From Geodermatophilus siccatus (GTDB taxonomy: Bacteria > Actinomycetota > Actinomycetes > Mycobacteriales > Geodermatophilaceae), in contig NZ_FNHE01000008.1 in NCBI RefSeq assembly GCF_900103785.1, forward strand, positions 129,270 through 193,269: a stretch of DNA of 64,000 bases. Direction: 5' to 3'. Numbering within the stretch: position 1 is the first letter of the stretch; every line of letters starts with the position of its first letter. This document shows positions 3,509 through 23,183 of this stretch, one piece after another. Position numbers and translations under genes: made by a program. Below the pieces are notes generated by a model. The model made no database searches. It saw only the letters and a list, made by a program, of their open reading frames with translations, and was not told where the DNA came from.

Positions 3509-4646
3509 GTGATCGCTCCTCGTCGTCGTCGGTCAACCAGTCGGCGGCGACCAGCCCGGCCAGCCGCTCCAGGAGGGGGCCGGCCTCGCTCATGCACCGG
3601 GCAGGGTCGGGTTCGATGTCGGTCAGCGCGTACGCGGCGCCGATCCCGGTGGGCGCCAGGTCCGCAGGGGTCAGCAGCGAGCGGCCGGCGACGGCGACGG
3701 CCGGCACGTCCAGCCCGCGGGCGGCCGCGGCGACGCCGGCAGGTGCCTTGCCGTGCAGGGTCTGCTCGTCCAGTGAGCCCTCGCCGGTGACCACCAGGTC
3801 CGCACCGGGCAGCGCGGCGCGGAAGCCGACGAGGTCGAGCACGAGGTCGATGCCCGGTCGCAGCGCGGCGCCGAGCGTGGCCATCGCCGCGAACCCGACC
3901 CCACCGGCCGCGCCGGCGCCCGGGCGGTCGGCCACGTCGATGCCGGTCGCCACCCGCACGGCCTCCGCCCACCGGGCCAGTGCGGCGTCCAGCTCGACGA
4001 CGTCGTCGGGCGAGGCCCCCTTCTGCGGACCGTAGACGGCGGCCGCGCCGCGCGGGCCCAGCAGCGGGTTGTCGACGTCGGAGGCGACGACGACCTCCGC
4101 CTCCCGCAGTGCCGGGTGGAGGCCTGAGAGGTCCAGCGACGCGACGGCCGCCAGAACGGCACCGCCGCGGCCGACCTCGCGGCCCCCGGCGTCCAGGAGA
4201 CGTCCCCCGAGCGCCTGCACCAGCCCCGCGCCGCCGTCGGTGGACGCGCTGCCCCCGATGCCGAGCACGATGCGCCGGCACCCCGCGTCGAGCGCGGCCC
4301 GGACGACCTCACCCGTGCCGTGGCTCGACGCGGTGCGGGCCGCCGGCCGCCCGCCGGGGAGCCGGCGCAGCCCCGACACGTCGGCCATCTCGACGACAGC
4401 GACGCCGTCCCGCTCGGCGTAGGCGGTCCCCACCGGTTCCCCGGTGGGCCCCTGTGCGGACACCGGCACCCGGCGGTACCCGGCGGAGACCGCTGCGTCG
4501 AGCGTCCCGTCACCCCCGTCGGCGACCGGCACCTGGACGACCTCGGTCCCCGGGGCGGCACGGGTCAGCCCGATGGCCAGGTGAGCGGCGACCTCCGGCG
4601 CGGACAGGGAGCCCTTGAACTTGTCCGGCGCCACCACGACGCGCAC
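3450..4646 (-). CDS. glxK: Glycerate kinase
   Basis: This 398-residue protein phosphorylates D-glycerate, by family to 2-phosphoglycerate, delivering glyoxylate carbon to glycolysis. It begins MRVVVAPDKFKGSLSAPEVA, the family signature, and has the glycine-rich GIGGSASTDGGAGL loop near residues 125-140 and the VTGEGSLDEQTL block near 290. The GTG start (4646) has CTGAGGAGG just upstream, which overlaps the stop region of gcl, so the two are translationally coupled. About 30 extra C-terminal residues, rich in Arg and Ser, extend into the next gene's start. Confidence 0.93.
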   Translation of the reverse strand: MRVVVAPDKFKGSLSAPEVAAHLAIGLTRAAPGTEVVQVPVADGGDGTLDAAVSAGYRRVPVSAQGPTGEPVGTAYAERDGVAVVEMADVSGLRRLPGGRPAARTASSHGTGEVVRAALDAGCRRIVLGIGGSASTDGGAGLVQALGGRLLDAGGREVGRGGAVLAAVASLDLSGLHPALREAEVVVASDVDNPLLGPRGAAAVYGPQKGASPDDVVELDAALARWAEAVRVATGIDVADRPGAGAAGGVGFAAMATLGAALRPGIDLVLDLVGFRAALPGADLVVTGEGSLDEQTLHGKAPAGVAAAARGLDVPAVAVAGRSLLTPADLAPTGIGAAYALTDIEPDPARCMSEAGPLLERLAGLVAADWLTDDDEERSRDTTSRVRGERSRPPLPQR

Positions 4647-8529: not shown

Positions 8530-8781
8530 CCTCCGGCACCGCACCGTCCCGCGGTGCGCCGAGCCCCTGTCCGGGAGGTCCCGTGGACGCTGCGACACCG
8601 GGCCGCCGCGCCCGGCCTCCGCCGGCCGGCTGACCCTCCTCGGACCGGGCCCGGCCGGGGGCGGCAGCGGGGAGGACGCGGGCCTGGTGGTGCGCGGCGT
8701 CGGCACAGACCCTGCGCACGAGCAACGGGGACGACCACTCCGCCCGGCGGAGACCAGCCGACCGGCTCAACGAGGAGCGCC

Positions 8782-10719
8782 ATGTCCACCACAGCCCCAC
8801 CCGCGGCGCCGGGCAAGCGCCGCAAGCACCCCGTCGACGAGGTCCCTCCTGCGGGGAAGCTCGCGGTCTACGGCATCCAGCACCTGCTCGCCTTCTACGC
8901 CGGCGCGGTGATCGTGCCGATCCTGCTGGCCGGCGCCATCGGACTGTCCGACCGCGAGCTCATCCACCTGATCAACGCCGACCTGTTCACCTGCGGCATC
9001 GCGTCGATCATCCAGTCGGTCGGCTTCTGGAAGGTCGGCGTCCGCCTGCCGCTGCTGCAGGGCGTCACCTTCACCGCGGTCTCGCCGATGATCGCCATCG
9101 GGCTGGCCGCGGGCGGCGGGACCGAGGGGCTGCTCGTCATCTACGGCGCGGTCATCGTCGCCGGGCTGTTCACCTTCGCCATCGCCCCGTACTTCAGCCG
9201 CCTCATCCGGTTCTTCCCCCCGGTCGTCACCGGGTCGGTCATCACGATCATCGGCATCGCGCTGCTCCCGGTGGCCGCGGCCGATGCCGTCGGTGGCGCG
9301 GCCGACCCGGACCCGGGCAACGCGCGCAACCTCGCGTACGCGCTGGGCACGCTGGCCCTGATCGTGCTCATGCAGCGGTTCTTCCGCGGCTTCCTGGCGA
9401 CGGTCGCCGTCCTGGTCGGGCTGGTCGTCGGCACGCTGACCGCCTGGGCGCTGGGCGACGCCACCTTCGGCGCGGTGGCCGACTCGTCGTGGATCGGCGT
9501 GACCACGCCGTTCTACTTCGGCTGGCCGAAGTTCAGCCTGGCCGCCATCGTGTCGATGATCGTTGTCATGCTGATCACCGCGGTGGAGACCACCGGTGAC
9601 GTGTTCGCCACGGGCGAGATCGTCGACAAGCGGGTCGGTCGCAAGGACATCGCCGCGGCGCTGCGCGCCGACGGCCTGGCCACCACGATCGGCGGCGTCC
9701 TCAACTCCTTCCCCTACACCTGCTTCGCCGAGAACGTCGGCCTGGTGCGCCTCACCCAGGTGAAGAGCCGCTGGGTCGTCGCCGCGGCGGGCGGCTTCAT
9801 GATCCTCGTCGGCCTGGTGCCCAAGGCCGGTGCCGTGGTGGCCGGCATCCCGCACCCCGTGCTCGGCGGGGCGGCGCTGGCGATGTTCGCGACCGTGGCG
9901 GTCGTCGGCATCCAGACGCTGAGCCGGGTGGACTTCAACGACCACCGCAACGTGGTCATCGTCGCCACCAGCCTGGGGCTGGCGCTGCTGGTCACCGTCC
10001 AGCCGGGGATCGCCGAGGCGGTGCCGTCGTGGGCCCGGATCATCCTCGGCAGCGGCATCACGCTGGGCAGCATCTCCGCGATCGTGCTGAACGCCGTCTT
10101 CCACCACATCGGGCGCCCCCACGGCCCCGCCGTCGCCGGCATCCCGGGGCAGCGGCAGGTCCGGCTGCAGGACGTCAACGCGATGAGCCGCGAGGAGTTC
10201 GTCGCCACCTTCGGCCGGCTGTTCCAGGGCCCGACGTGGGTGGTGGAGAACGCCTACACCCAGCGGCCGTTCGCCGACACCGCCTCGCTGCGGCTGGCCT
10301 TCCAGGAGGCCCTGTTCGCGGCCACCCCGGAGCAGCAGCGGCAGCTGATGGACGCCTACCCGGCGCTGGGCAGCGACACGGTCGCCGAGGGGACGGCGGG
10401 GGAGCAGTCCACCCTCGACCAGGCGACCGCGGGCCTCACCCGGCTGACCGACGAGGACCACGCCGCCTTCCGCGAGGTGACCACCGCGTACCGGGAGAAG
10501 TTCGGCTTCCCGCTCATCGTCTGCGTCCGCGACAACCCCAGCCGGGAGCGGATCCTCGAGCAGGGCCGGGCCCGCATGCAGAACTCGCCCGTCCAGGAGC
10601 ACGCGGCCGCGCTCATCGAGATCGCGAAGATCGCCGGGCACCGGTTCGACGACCTGGTGGCCGACGCCAACCCGATCCACAGCGCGCGGACCCAGCGCTA
10701 CGGCGCGACCGCGCTGTAA
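8782..10719 (+). CDS. NCS2 xanthine/uracil-type permease fused to an OHCU-decarboxylase-like domain
   Basis: The 645-residue product starts at ATG 8782 (AACGAGGAG upstream). Residues about 20-455 form a nucleobase:cation symporter-2 permease with 12-14 membrane helices: VYGIQHLLAFYAGAVIVPIL, then a NAT-type block around TGDVFATGEIVDKR. Residues about 464-630 match 2-oxo-4-hydroxy-4-carboxy-5-ureidoimidazoline decarboxylase (UraD): ENAYTQRPF, YREKFGFPLIVCV and an E-x3-ALIEIAKIAGHR helix. The catalytic His of the family's HPxLG motif is Tyr526 here, and the catalytic Glu of the EQ-x-x-AGL motif appears as Asp546. The domain may be inactive, altered, or a sensor or tether on the cytosolic face. 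It heads the xdh operon. Confidence 0.9.
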   Translation: MSTTAPPAAPGKRRKHPVDEVPPAGKLAVYGIQHLLAFYAGAVIVPILLAGAIGLSDRELIHLINADLFTCGIASIIQSVGFWKVGVRLPLLQGVTFTAVSPMIAIGLAAGGGTEGLLVIYGAVIVAGLFTFAIAPYFSRLIRFFPPVVTGSVITIIGIALLPVAAADAVGGAADPDPGNARNLAYALGTLALIVLMQRFFRGFLATVAVLVGLVVGTLTAWALGDATFGAVADSSWIGVTTPFYFGWPKFSLAAIVSMIVVMLITAVETTGDVFATGEIVDKRVGRKDIAAALRADGLATTIGGVLNSFPYTCFAENVGLVRLTQVKSRWVVAAAGGFMILVGLVPKAGAVVAGIPHPVLGGAALAMFATVAVVGIQTLSRVDFNDHRNVVIVATSLGLALLVTVQPGIAEAVPSWARIILGSGITLGSISAIVLNAVFHHIGRPHGPAVAGIPGQRQVRLQDVNAMSREEFVATFGRLFQGPTWVVENAYTQRPFADTASLRLAFQEALFAATPEQQRQLMDAYPALGSDTVAEGTAGEQSTLDQATAGLTRLTDEDHAAFREVTTAYREKFGFPLIVCVRDNPSRERILEQGRARMQNSPVQEHAAALIEIAKIAGHRFDDLVADANPIHSARTQRYGATAL

Positions 10720-10809: not shown

Positions 10810-12269
10810 ATGCAGTCGCCAGCCGTCACCGTGAACGGGCGGTCGATCCCGCTCGACGGCACCACGCCACACACCACCGCGCTCGACTGGCTGCGGACGC
10901 AGGGACTCGTCGGGTGCAAGGAGGGCTGCGCCGAGGGGGAGTGCGGGGCGTGCTCCGTCCTCGTCGCGCGGCCCGGGAGGACGACCCCCACGCGGTGGAC
11001 GGCCCTCAACGCCTGCCTGGTCCCCGTCGCCGCCCTCGCCGGGCAGGAGCTCGTGACCGCCGAGGGCCTGGGCACCCCGGACGCGCTGCACCCCGTCCAG
11101 CGGGAGATGGCCGAGCGGGGCGGCTCGCAGTGCGGGTACTGCACCCCCGGCTTCGTCTGCAGCATGGCGGCGGAGTACTACCGCGCCGACCGCGCCCCGG
11201 CCGCGGCCTCCGACGGCCACGGGGGCGGCGGGCCGGACCACCTGCACGGCCCGAACGGGTTCGACCTGCACGCCCTCAGCGGCAACCTCTGCCGCTGCAC
11301 CGGTTACCGGCCCATCCGCGACGCCGCCTTCGCGCTCGGCGCCCCGGAGGACGACGACCTGCTGGCGGCCCGGCGCAGCCAGCCGCCACCGGAGGTGCCC
11401 GCGACCCGCGTCGCCGCCGACGGGGCGGAGTTCGTCCGGCCGTCCGGGCTCGCCGAGGCGCTGACCCTGCTGGCCGAGCGGCCCGAGGCGCTGCTCGTCG
11501 CCGGGTGCACCGACTGGGGCGTCGACGTCAACCTGCGCGGGCAGCGCGCGCCGTTGGTGGTGGCGATCGACCAACTCCCGGAGCTGCGCGGCTTCGCCGT
11601 CACGGACTCCGCGGTGGAGATCGGTGCGGCGCTGAGCCTGTCGGAGGTCGAGGAGCGGCTCGCCGGACGGCTCCCGCTGCTCGACCAGGTCTTCCCCCAG
11701 TTCGCCTCGCGGCTGATCCGCAACGGCGCCACGATCGGCGGCAACCTCGGCACCGGCTCGCCCATCGGCGACACGACGCCGGCGCTGCTGGCCCTCGAGG
11801 CCACCGTCGTCCTCGCCTCGCTCGACGGCCAGCGCGAGGTCGAACTGGCCGACTACTTCACCGGGTACCGCCGCAGCGTGCGACGCGCCGACGAGGTCAT
11901 CCGCGCCGTCCGGGTGCCGCTGCCCCCGGCCGGGCTGGCCGCCTTCCACAAGGTGGCCAAGCGGCGCTTCGACGACATCTCCAGCGTCGCGATCGCCTTC
12001 GCCCTCGACGTGCGCGGCGGCGTCGTGCGGCGGGCGCGGATCGGCCTCGGCGGGGTGGCCGCCACGCCGGTGCGCGCCCGGGCCACCGAGGAGGCCCTCA
12101 CCGACCGGCCGTGGGACGCCGACACGGTGCGGGAGGCGGCCGCCGTGCTGGCCGGCGAGGGCACCCCGCTCGACGACCACCGGTCCAGCGCCGCCTACCG
12201 GTCGGCGATGTTGGGCCAGGCCCTGCACCGGCTGTTCGCCGAGAACCCGACGCCTTCGGAGGTGGGAGC

Positions 12270-12273
<4 letters not shown>
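10810..12273 (+). CDS. xdhA: Xanthine dehydrogenase small subunit (2Fe-2S and FAD)
   Basis: The 487-residue subunit carries electrons from the molybdenum site to NAD+. Residues 1-170 hold two 2Fe-2S clusters: GCKEGCAEGECGAC near 35-48 and QCGYCTPGF with GNLCRCTGYRPI further on. Residues about 195-360 are the FAD-binding part (LLVAGCTDWGVDVNL; IRNGATIGGNLGTGSPIGD), and the rest is the CO-dehydrogenase flavoprotein C-terminal domain. A glycine/histidine-rich linker around 155-165 separates the cluster motifs. The stop overlaps the xdhB start as ATGA. Confidence 0.95.
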
Positions 12274-14717
<2,444 letters not shown>

Positions 14718-14727
14718 GGGAGCGGTC

Positions 14728-15597
14728 GTGGAGTGGACGAAGGCGATCGAGGAGCTGCGCGCCGGCCGGCGCCGCGGCGTGCTGGTCACGGTGGCGGCGG
14801 TCCGCGGGCACGCCCCCCGCGGGGCCGGCGCCAAGATGGTCGTGGCCGCCGACCGCACCTGGTGCTCGGTCGGCGGCGGCAACCTCGAGGCGGTCGCGGT
14901 GGCCCGGGCGCGGGAGCTGCTCGGCACCCGGGGGTCGCGGCCCGAGCTGCTGACCGTCGCGCTGTCGGACAAGGCCCCCTACCAGCACGGCGTCCAGTGC
15001 TGCGGGGGAGAGGTGACGCTGCTGCTGGAGCCGCTGCCGGTCGCGCCGGCGGTCGCCGTCTTCGGCATCGGGCACGTCGGGCTGGAGCTGGCGCGGATCC
15101 TCGCCCGGCGGGACCTGGACCTGCACCTGGTCGACTCGCGCCCGGAGCAGCTCGCCGACGAGCGGCTGGCCGTGCTGGCCGACGCGGTGGCGACGGTGCA
15201 CGTGCACCACGTGCCGGTGCTGCCGGAGCTGGTGCTGGCCGAGCTGCCGCCCGGGGCGCACGTGCTGGTCATGACGCACGACCACGCCGAGGACGCCGCC
15301 CTCTGCGACGCCGCGCTGCGCACCCCCGGGCTGGGCTCCATCGGGCTCATCGGCTCGGCGGCGAAGTGGTCCCGATTCCGGCGCAAGCTCGCCGACGAGG
15401 GCCACCCGGACGAGGCGATCGACCGGATCACCACGCCCATCGGGCTGCCCGGGCTGACCGGCAAGGACCCCTCGACCATCGCGATCGGCGTGGCCGCCGC
15501 GCTGGTGGCGACGCTCGAGCGGGAGGCGGAGGGAGCGGACGGCGCGCAGGCCGCCGCGGACCCTGGACGGGTCCCGGCCCCGGGAGCACCGTCGTGA
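14728..15597 (+). CDS. xdhC: XdhC, cofactor insertion protein for xanthine dehydrogenase
   Basis: XdhC binds molybdenum cofactor, promotes its sulfuration and inserts it into XdhB. The 289-residue protein has the N-terminal XdhC/CoxI domain (VRGHAPRGAGAKMVV; HGVQCCGGEV) and a C-terminal Rossmann domain beginning VFGIGHVGLELARIL near residue 111. GTG 14728 follows xdhB by 10 bp with GGGAG before it. The end overlaps guaD as GTGA. Confidence 0.93.
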   Translation: MEWTKAIEELRAGRRRGVLVTVAAVRGHAPRGAGAKMVVAADRTWCSVGGGNLEAVAVARARELLGTRGSRPELLTVALSDKAPYQHGVQCCGGEVTLLLEPLPVAPAVAVFGIGHVGLELARILARRDLDLHLVDSRPEQLADERLAVLADAVATVHVHHVPVLPELVLAELPPGAHVLVMTHDHAEDAALCDAALRTPGLGSIGLIGSAAKWSRFRRKLADEGHPDEAIDRITTPIGLPGLTGKDPSTIAIGVAAALVATLEREAEGADGAQAAADPGRVPAPGAPS

Positions 15598-16892
15598 CGA
15601 TCTACCGCGGCACGGTCCTCGACACCCCCGTCGACCCGTTCACGGGAGGGACGCTCCGCGCCGACGCCGACGCCGGGTTGCTGGTGCGCGACGGGACGAT
15701 CGAGGCCCGGGGCGGCTTCGCCGAGCTGCGCGCGCGGCACCCCGGCGAGGAGGTCGTCTACCTGCGCGGCGGGCTGGTGCTGCCGGGCTTCGTCGACACC
15801 CACGTCCACTTCCCCCAGGTCCGGGCGATCGGCGGGCTGGGCATGCCGCTGCTGGACTGGCTCTCCCGCTGCGCCCTCCCCGAGGAGGCGCGGCTGGCCG
15901 ACGGTGGGTACGCCCGGGCCGTCGCGGCGGAGTTCGTCAGCGGCCTGGTCCAGGCGGGCACGACGACGGCCCTGGTGTTCGGCGCCCACTTCGCCTCGGC
16001 GGTCGACGCGTTGTTCGCCGAGGCCGCCCGCACCGGCCTGCGGATCACCAGCGGTCTGGTCGTCAGCGACCGGCTGCTGCGCGACGAGCTCCACACGACG
16101 CCGCAGCGCGCCTACGACGAGGGGCTCGCCCTGGCCCGGCGCTGGCACGGCGTGGGGGCCAGCCGCTACGCCGTCATCCCGCGGTTCTCGCTGTCGTGCG
16201 GCGACCCCCTCCTGCAGTCGTGCGGGTCGCTGCTCACCGACGTCGAGGGGGCGTGGTTCACCTCGCACGTCAACGAGAACGTCCGGGAGATCGCCGCCGT
16301 CGCCGAGCTCTTCGACGGCCGCCGGTACCTGGACACCTACGACCGGCACGGGCTCATCGGCCGCCGCAGCGTGCTGGCGCACAACGTGCACCCCTCGGAC
16401 GACGAGCTGGCGTGCCTGGCCTCGCGGGGCGCGAGTGTCGCCCACTGCCCGACCAGCAACGCGGCCCTCGGCAGCGGGCTCTTCCCGCTCGCCCGCCACC
16501 TGGCCCACGGCGTCCGGGTGGCGCTCGGCTCCGACGTCGGCGCCGGCACGGGGTTCTGTCTGCTCAAGGAGGGGCTGCAGGCCTACTTCGTGCAGCAGCT
16601 GCTCGGCGACGACGGCGCGCGGCTGACGTCGACCCACCTGCTGCACCTCGCGACCGCCGCCGGAGCCGACGTGCTCGGGCTCCGGGACCGGACCGGTGAC
16701 CTCGGGGCGGGGCGGCGCTTCGACGCCGTGTGGCTGCGGCCCTCCGCAGGCACGGCCCTCGACGTGGCGCTGCGCCACGCGGCGGACCCCGAGGACGCAC
16801 TGGCCAAGGCCTTCGTGCTGGGCTCACCGGCCGACATCGACACGGTGTGGGTGGACGGCCGGCCGTGCCGGAGCAGGAACCCCGTCGCCTGA
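15594..16892 (+). CDS. guaD: Guanine deaminase
   Basis: This amidohydrolase-superfamily enzyme deaminates guanine to xanthine, feeding xanthine dehydrogenase. The 432-residue frame begins at GTG 15594, overlapping the xdhC stop. Metal-binding His70 and His72 lie in VDTHVHFPQ; SHVNENVREI, LAHNVHPSDDELA and the SDVGAGTGFCLL block (metal Asp) follow in order as expected for GuaD. It is the last gene of this operon; a 447-bp control region follows. Confidence 0.94.
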   Translation: MTIYRGTVLDTPVDPFTGGTLRADADAGLLVRDGTIEARGGFAELRARHPGEEVVYLRGGLVLPGFVDTHVHFPQVRAIGGLGMPLLDWLSRCALPEEARLADGGYARAVAAEFVSGLVQAGTTTALVFGAHFASAVDALFAEAARTGLRITSGLVVSDRLLRDELHTTPQRAYDEGLALARRWHGVGASRYAVIPRFSLSCGDPLLQSCGSLLTDVEGAWFTSHVNENVREIAAVAELFDGRRYLDTYDRHGLIGRRSVLAHNVHPSDDELACLASRGASVAHCPTSNAALGSGLFPLARHLAHGVRVALGSDVGAGTGFCLLKEGLQAYFVQQLLGDDGARLTSTHLLHLATAAGADVLGLRDRTGDLGAGRRFDAVWLRPSAGTALDVALRHAADPEDALAKAFVLGSPADIDTVWVDGRPCRSRNPVA

Positions 16893-17339: not shown

Positions 17340-18692
17340 GTGACCCGGTACGACACGGTCCTGCGCGCTCGCCGTCTCGTGACGGCCGGGCGCGAGCAGG
17401 CCGGCTGCGTCGGGATCAGCGACGGGCGCATCGTCGCCGTCGAGCCGCTGGAGTCCGGTCTGGAGGGACGACGCGTCGTCGAGCTCGGCGAGGACGTCGT
17501 CCTGCTCCCCGGCCTGGTCGACGCCCACGTGCACGTCAACGAGCCCGGCCGCACCGAGTGGGAGGGGTTCGCGTCGGCGACGCGGGCGGCTGCCGCCGGT
17601 GGCGTCACCACGATCCTCGACATGCCCCTCAACAGCATCCCGCCGACCGTGGACGTGGCCGCGCTGGAGGTGAAGCGCAAGAGCGCCCTGGGCCAGATCT
17701 CCGTCGACGTCGGCTTCTGGGGTGGCGCCGTCCCCGGGAACCTGGGGGAGCTGACCGCGCTGCACGCCGCGGGCGTCTTCGGCTTCAAGTGCTTCCTGGT
17801 GCACTCGGGTGTCGAGGAGTTCCCCCCGCTGCGTCCGGAGGACCTCGAGGACTACCTGCGGGTCCTGCGGACCGTCGACGGGCTGCTCATCGTCCACGCC
17901 GAGGACGGCGACGAGATCGAGCAGGCCCCCAGCGCGCACAGCGACGACTACCGCGACTTCCTGTCCTCCCGGCCACGGGTGGCGGAGGACCGGGCCATCG
18001 GCCGGGTCATCGACGCCGCCCGGGCCACGGGTGCGCGGGCGCACATCCTGCACCTGTCCAGCAGCGACGCCCTGCCGCTGATCGCCGAGGCGCGCCGCGA
18101 CGGCGTCCGGATCACCGCCGAGACCTGCCCGCACTACCTGACGTTCGCGGCCGAGGAGATCCCCGCGGGGGCGACGCAGTTCAAGTGCTGCCCGCCCATC
18201 CGGGAGGCGGCCAACCGCGAGCGGCTGTGGCAGGGACTCGCCGACGGGACGATCGACTGCATCGTCTCCGACCACTCGCCGTGCACCCCGGAGCTCAAGC
18301 GGCTCGACCTGGGCGACTTCGCGCAGGCGTGGGGCGGCATCTCCTCGCTGCAGCTCGGCCTCTCCGACGTGTGGACCGAGGCCCGGCGGCGCGGCTTCGC
18401 CCTCCCCGACGTCGTGCGCTGGATGGCCGAGCGGCCGGCACAGCTCGCCGGGCTGCAGCGCAAGGGCCGCATCGAGCCCGGCTACGACGCCGACTTCTGC
18501 GTCTTCGCGCCGGACGACGGTTTCGTCGTCGACCCCGCCACGCTCTTCCACCGCAACCCCATCACCCCCTACGCGGGCCGGCGGCTCGACGGGGTCGTCC
18601 GCAGCACCTGGCTGCGCGGCCTCGAGACCGGCGGCGCAGAGCCGGCCGGCGACCGCCCGCGGGGGCACCTGCTGACCCGAGGAGAGGCATGA
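17340..18692 (+). CDS. allB: Allantoinase
   Basis: This zinc amidohydrolase opens allantoin to allantoate. The 450-residue frame begins at GTG 17340 (ACGGGAGG upstream); the frame stays open further upstream but only through the promoter. Metal ligands are His63 and His65 in VDAHVHVNEPG; the modified-lysine position is expected in GFKCFLVHSG; later ligands lie in IVHAED, ILHLSSS and SDHSPCTPE. Dihydropyrimidinases and dihydroorotases are relatives, but the position next to allantoicase settles the call. The end overlaps alc as ATGA. Confidence 0.95.
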   Translation: MTRYDTVLRARRLVTAGREQAGCVGISDGRIVAVEPLESGLEGRRVVELGEDVVLLPGLVDAHVHVNEPGRTEWEGFASATRAAAAGGVTTILDMPLNSIPPTVDVAALEVKRKSALGQISVDVGFWGGAVPGNLGELTALHAAGVFGFKCFLVHSGVEEFPPLRPEDLEDYLRVLRTVDGLLIVHAEDGDEIEQAPSAHSDDYRDFLSSRPRVAEDRAIGRVIDAARATGARAHILHLSSSDALPLIAEARRDGVRITAETCPHYLTFAAEEIPAGATQFKCCPPIREAANRERLWQGLADGTIDCIVSDHSPCTPELKRLDLGDFAQAWGGISSLQLGLSDVWTEARRRGFALPDVVRWMAERPAQLAGLQRKGRIEPGYDADFCVFAPDDGFVVDPATLFHRNPITPYAGRRLDGVVRSTWLRGLETGGAEPAGDRPRGHLLTRGEA

Positions 18693-19918
18693 CAGTGAGC
18701 AGCCCCGTGCAGGAACGGTCCGGCGTCGCGACGGTGGACCCCGGAGCCGACGCGGCGCCGGTGCAGGACTCCACCCGCCTGCCCGACCTGGCCTCGCGCA
18801 GCCTGGGCGGCAGCGTCGTCCACGCCAACGACGAGCTGTTCGCCGAGCGGGAGAACCTGATCAAGCCGGGGGCGCCGACCTACTCGACGTACACCTTCGG
18901 CCACAAGGGTCAGGTCTACGACGGCTGGGAGACGCGCCGGCGCCGCGAGCCCGGCCACGACCACGCCATCGTGCGCCTGGGTGTGCCGGGGATCGTGCGG
19001 GGCGTCGTCGTCGACACCGCCTTCTTCACGGGCAACTACCCGCCCGCCGTGTCGGTCGAGGGCGCCGCGGTCGAGGGCTATCCCTCCCCGGCGGAGCTGC
19101 TGGACGCGGAGTGGGTCCCCCTGGTGCCCCGCTCGCCGGCCGCCGGTGACACGCGGAACGTCTTCGCGGTCGACCAGCCGCAGCGCTTCACCCACGTCCG
19201 CCTGTGCATGTACCCCGACGGCGGGGTGGCCCGGCTGCGGGTGCACGGCGAGGTGGTCCCCGACCCCCGGTTCCTGACGGACGGAGCCGTCGACCTGGCG
19301 GCCCTCGCCAACGGGGGCGTGGTCAGCGGCTGCAGCAACATGTTCTTCTCCTCGCCGACGAACCTCATCTCGCCCGGACTGGCGCGGCTGATGGGGGAGG
19401 GCTGGGAGACCGCCCGCCGCCGCGACGACGGCAACGACTGGGTGGAGTTCTCCCTCGCCGGGCCCGGCGTGGTGCGCCTGGCCGAGCTGGACACGAGCTG
19501 GTTCCTGGGCAACGCCCCCGGCTGGGCCTCCCTCCGCGGCACCCGCCGCCGGGGCGGTGCGGCGGACGGCCCCGAGGAGTGGACCGAGCTGCTGCCCCGG
19601 ACCCGGCTGCAGCCCGACACCCGCCACCTGTTCCGCCTGCCCGACGTCGGCGAGGTCGACACCGTCCGGCTCGACGTCTTCCCCGACGGCGGGATGGCCC
19701 GGGTGCGGCTGCACGGCACGCTCAGCGACCAGGGGCGGGCCGAGCTGGGACTGCGCTGGTTCAACAGCCTGCCGGCCGCCCAGGCCCGGCAGGTGCTGGC
19801 CCGGGAGTGCGGCCTGGACGGCACGGCGGCCGACGACGTCCTCGCCGGCCGGCCGGTTCCCGACCCGAGCGCGCTGCCCGGCGCCGTCCGCTCCCTGCTG
19901 ACCGGAGGTGCCCGGTGA
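18689..19918 (+). CDS. alc: Allantoicase
   Basis: Allantoicase hydrolyses allantoate to ureidoglycolate and urea. The 409-residue protein has the family's internal duplication: two jelly-roll repeats, about residues 45-200 and 215-375, each with a DTAFFTGN / DTSWFLGN element and a later F/YPDGG-x-ARL/VR element. Start ATG 18689 follows GGAGAGG and overlaps allB. About 35 N-terminal residues before the first repeat look disordered. The urea and ureidoglycolate products need enzymes not recognised in this window. Confidence 0.95.
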   Translation: MTVSSPVQERSGVATVDPGADAAPVQDSTRLPDLASRSLGGSVVHANDELFAERENLIKPGAPTYSTYTFGHKGQVYDGWETRRRREPGHDHAIVRLGVPGIVRGVVVDTAFFTGNYPPAVSVEGAAVEGYPSPAELLDAEWVPLVPRSPAAGDTRNVFAVDQPQRFTHVRLCMYPDGGVARLRVHGEVVPDPRFLTDGAVDLAALANGGVVSGCSNMFFSSPTNLISPGLARLMGEGWETARRRDDGNDWVEFSLAGPGVVRLAELDTSWFLGNAPGWASLRGTRRRGGAADGPEEWTELLPRTRLQPDTRHLFRLPDVGEVDTVRLDVFPDGGMARVRLHGTLSDQGRAELGLRWFNSLPAAQARQVLARECGLDGTAADDVLAGRPVPDPSALPGAVRSLLTGGAR

Positions 19919-20439
19919 GCGGGTCCGTGGACGAGCTGCGGGCCGGTCTGGAGACGCTGGACGCGCTGCCCGCCGACCGGGCCGAGGAGCAGCTGGCCGC
20001 CTGCTGCGCGGCCCGCGCCTGGGTCGCCCGCATGGTCGCCGGCCGGCCCTACGCCGACGTCGACGACCTCCTGGCCGCCAGCGACCGGGCGATCGAGGAC
20101 CTCGGACCCGGCGACCTGGCCGAGGCGCTGGCGGCGCACCCCCGCATCGGACAGCGGGTGGCCGGCTCCTCTCCCGAGGCCGCCTGGTCCCGGCAGGAGC
20201 AGTCCGGGATGGACGACGCCGACACCGAGGTCCGCGCCGCGCTGCGCGAGGGCAACCTCGCCTACGAGGAGCGCTTCGACCAGGTCTTCCTGATCCGCGC
20301 GGCCGGCCGGTCACCCGCGGAGATGCTCACCGAGCTCCGCCGACGGCTCGGCAACGACCCCGAGACCGAACGGCGCGAGGTCGCCGAGCAGCTGCGGCAG
20401 ATCACCCGCCTCCGGCTGGAGAGGTCGCTGCAGCCGTGA
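19915..20439 (+). CDS. uraD: OHCU decarboxylase
   Basis: This enzyme decarboxylates OHCU to S-allantoin, the last step from urate. The 174-residue protein retains the catalytic His75 (AAHPRIGQ) and Glu95 (RQEQSGM), unlike the domain fused to the permease at 8782-10719. YEERFDQVFLIRAAGRS matches the family's substrate-pocket strand. GTG 19915 overlaps the alc stop, and its end overlaps the next gene, so it is tightly coupled. Confidence 0.93.
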   Translation: MSGSVDELRAGLETLDALPADRAEEQLAACCAARAWVARMVAGRPYADVDDLLAASDRAIEDLGPGDLAEALAAHPRIGQRVAGSSPEAAWSRQEQSGMDDADTEVRAALREGNLAYEERFDQVFLIRAAGRSPAEMLTELRRRLGNDPETERREVAEQLRQITRLRLERSLQP

Positions 20440-20768
20440 GCTCCCTGTCGACGCACGTCCTCGACGCCGTCTCCGGGCAGCCCGCCGCAGGCGTGCGGGT
20501 GACCCTGGAACGCCGTGCGGGGGAGGACTGGCAGCCGCTCGGCACCGGCGTCACCGACGCCGACGGCCGCCTGCGCGACCTGGCGCCCGACGGACTCGAC
20601 GCCGGTGTGCACCGCCTGACCTTCGCCACGGGCGACTACTTCGCGGCGACCGGCCAGACCGGCTTCTACCCCGAGGTGACGGTGGCCTTCACCGTCACCG
20701 AGGACCGGCACCACCACGTCCCCCTGCTGCTCAGCCCGTACGCCTACTCCACCTACCGAGGTTCCTAG
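20436..20768 (+). CDS. uraH: 5-hydroxyisourate hydrolase (transthyretin-like)
   Basis: Hydrolyses 5-hydroxyisourate, the product of urate oxidase, to OHCU. The 110 residues show the N-terminal STHVLDAVSGQPAAGV element with catalytic His and the invariant C-terminal YRGS tail. Start GTG 20436 overlaps the uraD stop. It acts between the flanking urate oxidase and OHCU decarboxylase. Confidence 0.95.
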   Translation: MSSLSTHVLDAVSGQPAAGVRVTLERRAGEDWQPLGTGVTDADGRLRDLAPDGLDAGVHRLTFATGDYFAATGQTGFYPEVTVAFTVTEDRHHHVPLLLSPYAYSTYRGS

Positions 20769-20784
20769 AACAGGAGTGATCCCC

Positions 20785-21663
20785 ATGGCAGTCGTGCTCG
20801 GCCACAACCAGTACGGCAAGGCGGAGAACCGGGTCGTCCGGGTCTTCCGCGACAGCGACCCCCACGAGATCGTCGACTACAACGTCAGCGTCGCGCTGTG
20901 GGGCGGCCAGGAGGCACCGCACCTGACCGGCGACAACGCGCCGGTGCTGCCGACGGACACGCAGAAGAACACCGTCTACGCCTTCGCCAAGGAGGACGAC
21001 GTCGTCGCGCAGCCGGAGTCGTTCGGCATCCGGCTGGCCCGCCACTTCGTCGACGAGACCGAGCCGATCACCCACGCGCGGGTCCGCATCGAGATGTACC
21101 CGTGGACCCGGCTGGGCAACCCGCACGCCTTCACCCGCGACGGCCGCTTCGTCCGCACCGCGACGGTGACCTACGACGGCTCGACCACCTGGGTCGTCTC
21201 CGGGGTCGAGGACCTGTGGATCCTCAAGACCACCGACTCGGAGTTCGCGGACTTCCTGGAGGACCGGTTCACGACGCTGGCGCCCACGCACGACCGCCTC
21301 ATGGCGACCTCGCTGCGCGCCCAGTGGTGGCACACCGGCGAGGACGTCGACTGGGGCAAGTCCCACGACCGGGTCGTGCAGACGGTGCTGGAGACCTACG
21401 GCAACCACCACAGCCTGGCGCACCAGCAGACCCTGTTCGACTGCGGCGCAGCCGTGCTGGAGGAGCAGCCGGAGATCGCCGAGTTCCGCGTCACCGCCCC
21501 GAACAAGCACCACTTCGTCTACGACCTGGCCCGCTTCGGGATCGAGAACGCCGGCGAGGTCTTCCACGCCGACGACCGTCCCTACGGGCTCCAGGAGCTC
21601 ACGGTCCGCCGCGACGACGCCCCCGCCCCCGGCCTGGCCTTCGACCCCGGTCAGGGCTGGTGA
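20785..21663 (+). CDS. uox: Urate oxidase (uricase)
   Basis: This cofactor-free T-fold enzyme oxidises urate to 5-hydroxyisourate. The 292-residue frame begins at ATG 20785 with CAGGAG eight bases before it; a GTG at 20776 is too close to that ribosome site. The protein opens VVLGHNQYGKAENRVVRVFR, has LKTTDSEF in the middle and PNKHHF for substrate binding late in the second repeat. It lies 16 bp after uraH. Confidence 0.95.
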   Translation: MAVVLGHNQYGKAENRVVRVFRDSDPHEIVDYNVSVALWGGQEAPHLTGDNAPVLPTDTQKNTVYAFAKEDDVVAQPESFGIRLARHFVDETEPITHARVRIEMYPWTRLGNPHAFTRDGRFVRTATVTYDGSTTWVVSGVEDLWILKTTDSEFADFLEDRFTTLAPTHDRLMATSLRAQWWHTGEDVDWGKSHDRVVQTVLETYGNHHSLAHQQTLFDCGAAVLEEQPEIAEFRVTAPNKHHFVYDLARFGIENAGEVFHADDRPYGLQELTVRRDDAPAPGLAFDPGQGW

Positions 21664-21695: not shown

Positions 21696-23183
21696 ATGGC
21701 CCTGTGGAACAAGAAGCGGCGCACGGGTGCGGCCGGGACGGGTGGGCACCCGGTGGACGAGGTGCTGCCACCGGGACCGATGGTGGCCTACGGCCTGCAG
21801 CACGTGCTGAGCATGTACGCGGGGGTGGTCGCGGTGCCGATCATCATCGGTACCGCGCTGGGGCTCTCCACCCAGCAGACCACGTACCTGATCAGCGCCG
21901 GCCTATTCATGTCCGGCCTGGCCACGCTCCTGCAGACGCTCGGCGTCTGGCGGATCGGCGCCCGGCTGCCGATCGTGCAGGGGACGTCGTTCGCGGCCGT
22001 CTCCACCATGCTGGCCATCGGCGCACCGCTGGGCGGTGAGGCGGGGCTGCGCGCCATCTTCGGGGCGCTCATCGTCGCCGGCGCCATCGCGCTGCTGATC
22101 GCGCCGTTCTTCACCAGGCTGCTCCGGTTCTTCCCCCCGGTCGTGACCGGCACGGTCATCACGGTCATCGGGGTGTCGCTGCTGCCGGTGGCGATGCGGT
22201 GGGCGCTCGGGACGGCGAACACCCCCGGGTACGGCTCGATGCGCAACATCGGCCTGGCCGGGGCGACCCTGCTGATCATCGTCCTGATCTACCGCTTCCT
22301 GGGCGGCTTCTTCAACCGCGTGGCCATCCTCTTCGGGCTCGTGCTCGGGACGCTGGTGGCCATCCCGTTCGGCGCCACGGACTTCGGCCGTCTCGGGGAC
22401 GCCGCTCCCTTCCAGCTGACCGAGCCGTTCCACTTCGGCATGCCGACCTTCGCCGTCGGGGCGATCGTCTCGATGCTCGTCGTGATGCTGGTGATCATGA
22501 CCGAGACGACGGCCGACATCCTGGCCATCGGTGAGGTCGTCGACAAGCGGCTCACCCGCCGCGACGTCACCGGCGGACTGCAGGCCGACATGCTCTCCAC
22601 CACCGTCGCCGGCGTCTTCAACGGCTTCTCGGTCAGCGCGTTCGCCCAGAACGTCGGCCTGGTCGCCGTGACCGGGATCAAGAGCCGGTTCGTCGTCGCG
22701 GTGAGCGGCGTCATCCTCCTCCTGCTCGGCCTCTTCCCGGTCCTCGGCGCGATCGTGGCGGTCGTGCCGCTGCCCGTCCTCGGGGGCGCGGGGCTGGTGC
22801 TGTTCGGCACGGTCGCCGCCAGCGGCATCCGCACGCTGAGCAAGGTGGAGTACGACGGCAACGCCAACCTGGTCATCGTCGCGGCCGCCCTGGCGATGGG
22901 CGTCATCCCCATCGCCATCCCCGAGTTCTACGAGCCCTTCCCGAGCTGGTTCGAGGTCGTCTTCGACTCGGGCATCAGCGCCGCCGCGATCACCGCCATC
23001 CTGCTCAACCTGCTGTTCAACGTGCGGCGCGGGCAGCCGGAGGAGGCGCCGATCTTCGCGGAGGCGCCGGCGATCGGCACCACCTACGAAGGGGACACGG
23101 AGGGGATCGTGGTCGAGCACACCGACACCGCCCACCCGACCCCCACCAGGCCGAGGCGCCGGGTCCCCGACAGCCACCACTGA
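21696..23183 (+). CDS. NCS2 purine permease (urate/xanthine type)
   Basis: The 495-residue membrane protein has 12-14 predicted helices and no C-terminal enzyme domain, unlike the permease at 8782. It opens VDEVLPPGPMVAYGLQHVLS, shared in style with the first permease; the signature region reads TETTADILAIGEVVDKRLTR. Position directly after uox suggests urate or xanthine uptake by proton or sodium symport. Start ATG 21696 has GAGGAGGACCG upstream. Confidence 0.92.
   Translation: MALWNKKRRTGAAGTGGHPVDEVLPPGPMVAYGLQHVLSMYAGVVAVPIIIGTALGLSTQQTTYLISAGLFMSGLATLLQTLGVWRIGARLPIVQGTSFAAVSTMLAIGAPLGGEAGLRAIFGALIVAGAIALLIAPFFTRLLRFFPPVVTGTVITVIGVSLLPVAMRWALGTANTPGYGSMRNIGLAGATLLIIVLIYRFLGGFFNRVAILFGLVLGTLVAIPFGATDFGRLGDAAPFQLTEPFHFGMPTFAVGAIVSMLVVMLVIMTETTADILAIGEVVDKRLTRRDVTGGLQADMLSTTVAGVFNGFSVSAFAQNVGLVAVTGIKSRFVVAVSGVILLLLGLFPVLGAIVAVVPLPVLGGAGLVLFGTVAASGIRTLSKVEYDGNANLVIVAAALAMGVIPIAIPEFYEPFPSWFEVVFDSGISAAAITAILLNLLFNVRRGQPEEAPIFAEAPAIGTTYEGDTEGIVVEHTDTAHPTPTRPRRRVPDSHH

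Follow-up and report, generated by a model that had tools for sequence, protein, structure and literature searches.

Several described proteins resemble parts of the gene product analyzed here. Carriers of the SLC26/SulP family bear a C-terminal STAS domain with a regulatory role, and the OHCU decarboxylase UraD, itself a dimer, is fused to uricase in PucL. NCS2/NAT permeases, exemplified by UapA, XanQ, UacT and the PbuX family (TIGR03173), work as dimers. In Arabidopsis TTL, UraD is joined to HIU hydrolase, and OHCU decarboxylase activity has been shown for this fusion according to the accessible part of the report (PMC2834698).

The gene studied here lies in a 64,000-nucleotide stretch of Geodermatophilus siccatus DNA, referred to as the window. 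It encodes a complete NCS2/NAT domain with the NAT signature motif but, unlike other members of that family, adds a C-terminal domain of about 180 aa. This domain resembles UraD of the UHCUDC type, represented by the zebrafish enzyme 2o70, in fold and ancestry and differs from it in being tethered to a permease. As in PucL and TTL, UraD is fused to a purine-pathway protein; unlike in TTL, where the partner is an enzyme, it is joined to a transporter, and the catalytic His is gone. With SLC26/SulP proteins, the fusion shares the transmembrane fold and the presence of a C-terminal cytosolic domain, but STAS is unrelated to UraD and the likeness is a functional analogy only. No description of an NCS2–UraD fusion was found in the accessible text of the open-licence literature, among the matches listed. 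Databases already show the domain pair, naming such proteins solute carrier family 23 or uraD. What appears to be new is a transporter-linked pseudoenzyme built from UraD.

The fusion gene and its surroundings

The fusion occupies a single open reading frame, with an ATG at 8782, a TAA stop at 10717–10719 and GAGGAG at 8772–8777 upstream of the start (Table 1). Pfam assigned residues 26–408 to Xan_ur_permease (PF00860, 347 bits) and residues 466–622 to OHCU_decarbox (PF09349, 141 bits versus a cut-off of 24); these were the sole matches at E 0.001, and no STAS domain was detected in the fusion protein by this search. The NCBIfam model pbuX (TIGR03173) matched with 525.5 bits versus 414.15 over profile positions 1–407 of 407, corresponding to a full-length NCS2/NAT domain, and UHCUDC (TIGR03164) scored 127.8 bits versus 96.25 on the fused domain. 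Comparison of an AlphaFold model of the whole protein with 2o70 gave a TM score of 0.93 (target length) and an rmsd of about 1.5. By its profile scores over the cut-offs and its UraD fold, the fused domain is a member of the OHCU decarboxylase family by descent. The arrangement proposed in an earlier note on this DNA, a complete NCS2 permease followed in frame by a UraD-like domain, was thus confirmed by the reading frame, its coordinates, Pfam and NCBIfam. Two separate genes or a frameshift are ruled out by the single open frame and by the spacing from the NAT motif to the aromatic residue discussed below, which amounts to 209–218 residues in 92 of 94 fusions.

Table 1 Features of the fusion gene and the neighboring purine genes in the window
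Feature	Position	Strand	Evidence or remark
NCS2–pseudoUraD fusion gene	8782..10719	+	645 aa plus stop
NCS2 permease domain, residues 26–441	8857..10104	+	TIGR03173 pbuX; UraA/UapA fold
Glu317, NAT-motif position 4 (Gln408 in UapA)	9730..9732	+	Gln in unfused NCS2 of same cluster
Linker, residues 442–465	10105..10176	+	Loosely constrained; dN/dS 0.20 to 1.24 (five pairs, 24 codons each)
OHCU-decarboxylase-like domain (pseudoUraD), residues 466–622	10177..10647	+	Pfam/NCBIfam profiles, phmmer, structure
Tyr526, at catalytic His position (His67 of zebrafish UraD)	10357..10359	+	phmmer, MAFFT
Asp546, at catalytic Glu position (Glu87 of zebrafish UraD)	10417..10419	+	phmmer, MAFFT
Arg621, conserved (aligned with Arg161 of zebrafish UraD)	10642..10644	+	Present in 95/95 fused domains
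xdhA, xdhB, xdhC and guanine deaminase, after fusion gene	10810..16892	+	
Allantoinase and allantoicase	17340..19918	+	
Separate catalytic-type uraD (UraD_2 type, His75/Glu95)	19915..20439	+	Pfam, NCBIfam
Hydroxyisourate hydrolase (uraH) and urate oxidase	20442..21663	+	
Second NCS2 permease, not fused, with Gln at NAT-motif position 4	21696..23183	+	Pfam, NCBIfam

In the zebrafish OHCU decarboxylase, His67 and Glu87 are the catalytic pair, and Arg161 is a pocket residue; the letters at these three numbers agreed with these assignments in the MAFFT alignment. Both phmmer and MAFFT aligned His67 with Tyr526 and Glu87 with Asp546, exactly the replacements that had been claimed for the fused copy. 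Of the residues expected in a functional OHCU decarboxylase, the catalytic His and the catalytic Glu are therefore both absent from the window’s fused domain. Misalignment is ruled out, as phmmer, MAFFT and structure concur on the domain and the positions, and the catalytic residues are not displaced elsewhere. Loss of the ordinary catalytic pair in the fused domain is well supported. The separate uraD of the cluster, about 9 kb from the fusion gene, does keep His75 and Glu95, as previously stated. A third UraD, with His and Glu intact, was observed on another contig of the same genome (L215, 2437–3585, minus strand, G000:C7).

Catalytic positions in fused and unfused domains

UraD domains from all loci were pooled after collapsing identical ones and discarding those of ≤90 aa or with a score ≤25. 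His was found at the catalytic position in none of the 94 distinct fused first domains, which carried Tyr and Asp (84), Phe and Asp (six) or Tyr and Glu (four). Among 138 domains not seen fused, 136 had the pair His and Glu; the two exceptions, L102 and L033, both have Tyr and Glu, L102 being of the fused type and located where its contig ends. The window’s fusion is, thus, not alone, and a lone exception among fusions with intact His, an outcome that would have spoken against the earlier note, did not emerge. Whether Tyr and Asp are both conserved has a divided answer: all fused domains found have an aromatic residue, but four of the 94 still have Glu as the acid. Because the aromatic residue is universal and the acid is Asp in 90 yet Glu in four, it is the loss of His that defines the fused domains. 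A lone degenerate copy is also ruled out, given 94 distinct fused domains without His and purifying selection on the domain (see below).

An order-level search identified the fusion in ten of 200 genomes, including the window’s own. When 84,980 species genomes were scanned using the domain alignment, the best 80 of 220 loci were kept and, judged by their titles, all of these belonged to Actinomycetota except the one from Bosea caraganae. In a phylum sample, 12 of 396 genomes, again including the own one, contained a one-frame match across both sides of the junction; an insert splits four of the 12 matches in two. The gene of B. caraganae, an alphaproteobacterium (L108, 3699–5585), encodes an Actinomycetota-type fusion with Phe and Asp. 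Within its class, a junction-spanning match (E at most 1e-12) was obtained in one of 240 genomes, Bosea itself, suggesting that the gene was probably acquired by horizontal transfer. Plasmid searches returned 602 matching records, and at least 39 of them, among the matches listed, cover at least 80% of the query. Of five plasmid records examined, those from Rhodococcus qingshengii and Rubrobacter radiotolerans contained fusions, two others contained adjacent gene pairs and one, from Sinorhizobium, was a non-fusion match. Ten further UraD loci from the order search, most with long open frames, included no intact-His fusion, as none was fused to NCS2; most searches were seeded with the fused domain, favoring relatives of the same kind, and fusions of a different type may have escaped detection.

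Some sequences showed individual peculiarities. In L158, L170 and L035, about 22 additional residues directly follow the Tyr-Pro-x-Leu-Gly motif. A second fusion-like match at G080:C1:1534156-1534711 is spread over two frames and, therefore, looks broken. In Pseudonocardia sp. CNS-004 (L043, about 3651–3720), the permease frame appears interrupted near its start, by an assembly error or in a broken gene.

Origin of the fused domain and its live counterparts

Phylogenetic relationships were studied with 110 of the 234 domains after removal of the His and Glu columns, using a short tree search with SH-aLRT support only. The fused domains formed one clade consisting of 34 fused rows and L102 (SH-aLRT 99). 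It was nested among solo enzymes of the UHCUDC type, with family f32 and Deinococcus as nearest relatives, and the surrounding steps had moderate support (SH-aLRT 80–93). The aromatic state required two changes on this tree, one for the fused clade and one for L033. The latter, a UraD from G159 that was not seen fused, has Tyr for His with Glu kept and represents a second, separate loss of His. Since the fused domains form one clade, His was probably lost a single time among them, near the time of fusion.

Gene order offers a view of the preceding state. Family f32 looks Rubrobacter-like, judging from the similarity of its fusions to the one in R. radiotolerans, and in four of its loci (L198, L202, L203 and L204) a live uraD of the UHCUDC type lies directly 3′ of the fusion. 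In Deinococcus and Priestia, NCS2 and a uraD with His and Glu are adjacent but separate genes, and a table row in PMC4016543 lists adjacent, separate permease and uraD genes for Rubrobacter xylanophilus. These three sets of gene pairs were considered as counter-examples and rejected, as they represent the unfused state. From the live uraD following the f32 fusions and the adjacent separate genes in these genera, the likely course started with neighboring genes, after which one uraD copy was fused and lost its His and a live one was retained. Most other lineages examined have a live enzyme belonging to the distant UraD_2 type.

A live enzyme accompanies the fusion almost throughout. Among 25 genomes from which fused loci were taken, 24 had a further UraD with His and Glu, the one without it (G224) being a metagenome assembly. 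All of 20 more genomes, including the window’s own, have a UraD with His and Glu, which in two cases forms the third domain encoded by the fusion frame itself, bringing the total with a catalytic-type UraD besides the fused domain to 44 of 45 genomes.

Pocket, permease half and possible roles

To the 94 fused domains, L102 was added for pocket counts, giving 95. Relative to 2o70, fused domains keep Arg161 and Tyr111 and mostly Pro68, Ser84 and Gln88 (Arg621 in 95/95, Tyr570 in 95/95, Pro527 in 91/95, Ser543 in 82/95 and Gln547 in 73/95). They differ in that an aromatic residue always replaces His and Asp mostly replaces Glu. Furthermore, enzyme Asn108, found in 136 of 137 other domains, is Thr or Ala in 82/95, Phe119 is Leu in 95/95 and the loop Glu before a conserved Trp, present in 47/47 enzymes of the UHCUDC type, is Gln in 88/95. 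The pattern of kept and changed residues is more suggestive of a remodeled pocket than of decay. An acid in 95/95 domains and the retention of much of the pocket would suit an enzyme with changed activity, which would either use a different route on OHCU or accept a different substrate; we consider this improbable, as His is missing in all fused domains and replaced by Phe in 6/94, Asn108 and Phe119 are altered too and 44/45 genomes possess a UraD with His and Glu.

In comparisons with five relatives, dN/dS values of the fused UraD domain were 0.25, 0.23, 0.39, 0.50 and 0.52, and those of the permease part ranged from 0.08 to 0.27; the row of L043 was left out because of its interrupted frame. 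Two solo UraD pairs (0.74 and 0.91), the members of which may not be orthologous, were omitted from the comparison. Judged by these ratios, the fused domain is under purifying selection, though less constrained than the permease. Its faster evolution, the loose linker and the drift of some pocket residues would also be in keeping with a tail that stabilizes the permease dimer or its folding without any ligand. Such a purely structural function seems quite improbable, since Arg621 and Tyr570 in 95/95 domains and an always-aromatic catalytic position are more than a stabilizer needs.

The reading that we favor, and to which we give an even chance, is that the fused domain works in the cytosol without being an enzyme, dimerizing, binding a purine or ureide and regulating the permease as STAS does on SLC26. 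Its basis is sequence, from which we infer dimer pairing, ligand binding and a transport response. NCS2 carriers and UraD are both dimeric and, therefore, the two tails of a permease dimer could pair beneath the membrane. With an aromatic residue filling the catalytic position, the pocket could accommodate a purine or ureide ligand (xanthine, urate, OHCU or allantoin) but not convert it, and binding would report the cytosolic level of this ligand, upon which transport would be adjusted. The kept pocket residues favor binding, while the aromatic substitute, including the Phe of 6/94 domains with no proton to give, and the other pocket changes disfavor chemistry. SLC26 carriers ranked directly behind NCS2 structures in both fold comparisons; the match list of VIA-align is taken up by the permease half and carries no information on the UraD half. 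Against regulation, Arg621 and Tyr570 may be structural instead, and the fused domain is, by dN/dS, evolving faster than the permease. Gln547 is lost in 22/95 domains, so ligand contacts, if any, would differ between lineages. In addition, the live UraD on the same chain in two genomes fits a docking function equally.

In that alternative, the main rival, the dead domain would pair with catalytic UraD or other pathway enzymes and hold the reactions that have unstable intermediates close to the importer, an arrangement favored by the dimeric nature of UraD. Two triple fusions (L007, 931–3354, minus strand; L009, 208–2637, plus strand) encode NCS2, a dead UraD and a live UraD of the UraD_2 type in one frame, the second UraD having His and Glu in both. 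Within flanks of up to 5 kb on each side, the 80 named loci contained xdhA (53), guanine deaminase (42), uox (38), uraH (38) and UraD_2-type uraD (38). The latter is the next gene after the fusion in R. qingshengii, and the live uraD directly following the four f32 fusions points in the same direction. However, 42 of the 80 loci have no UraD_2-type uraD within these flanks, as in the window with its distance of about 9 kb, live partners come from two distant UraD clades in different lineages and a pure dock has no need of kept pocket residues. We, therefore, regard docking as rather unlikely. Of the roles originally offered for the domain, we would rank sensor or regulator first, scaffold second and changed enzyme third.

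The permease half provides a further clue. The fusion contains the NAT signature (F315 A316 E317 N318 V319 G320 and T325; Gln/Glu, Asn, Gly, Thr), in which the Gln at position 4 of the urate–xanthine carrier UapA is absent. Glu at this site characterizes 90/94 fusions: it occurs in 90/90 of the Asp type, and the four of the Glu type have Gln (three) or Gly (one). Unfused NCS2 proteins with a readable motif had Gln in 15/15, including the window’s second NCS2 (12 by pattern, three by eye); three unreadable fragments were left out of this count, and L011, labeled unfused with Glu, is a fusion. The association of Asp or Glu in the pseudo-active site with Glu or Gln in the NAT motif is complete across these sequences but stems from few independent changes. 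Position 4 corresponds to Gln408 of UapA, and the accessible part of PMC5972032 reports that Q408E broadened the specificity of this carrier, rendering it promiscuous for hypoxanthine, guanine or uracil. This suggests a division of labor between the two NCS2 proteins of the window, in which the fused permease might serve guanine, hypoxanthine or xanthine and the second one would be urate/xanthine-like.

A joint reading of all these observations is tentative, and we hold it a little less probable than not. Around one fusion event, an OHCU decarboxylase would have turned into a dead, ligand-binding regulator of the permease. The live enzyme would have been kept under a gene of its own, which in most descendants comes from a different UraD clade. 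The specificity site of the permease would have changed with the pseudo-active site, creating a purine transceptor and a new class of transporter-linked pseudoenzymes in many Actinomycetota. If true, STAS would no longer be the one type of cytosolic regulatory domain on UraA-fold carriers but would be joined by a second, and the family would provide a natural test of a dead enzyme regulating a carrier, for which comparison forms are still extant as unfused neighbors, live paralogues, forms with Tyr and Glu and triple fusions. Annotation would also be affected. The fusion of R. radiotolerans carries the name uraD, an NCBIfam equivalog-domain model scores the window’s domain over its cut-off and databases can, thus, label the fused domain an active decarboxylase; under this reading, such labels would be wrong across the whole clade. 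Regarding expression, the relevant part of PMC4617892 reports that msmeg_1293 of M. smegmatis, a permease by description, was up 3.98-fold together with msmeg_1294–1296 on nitrogen limitation.
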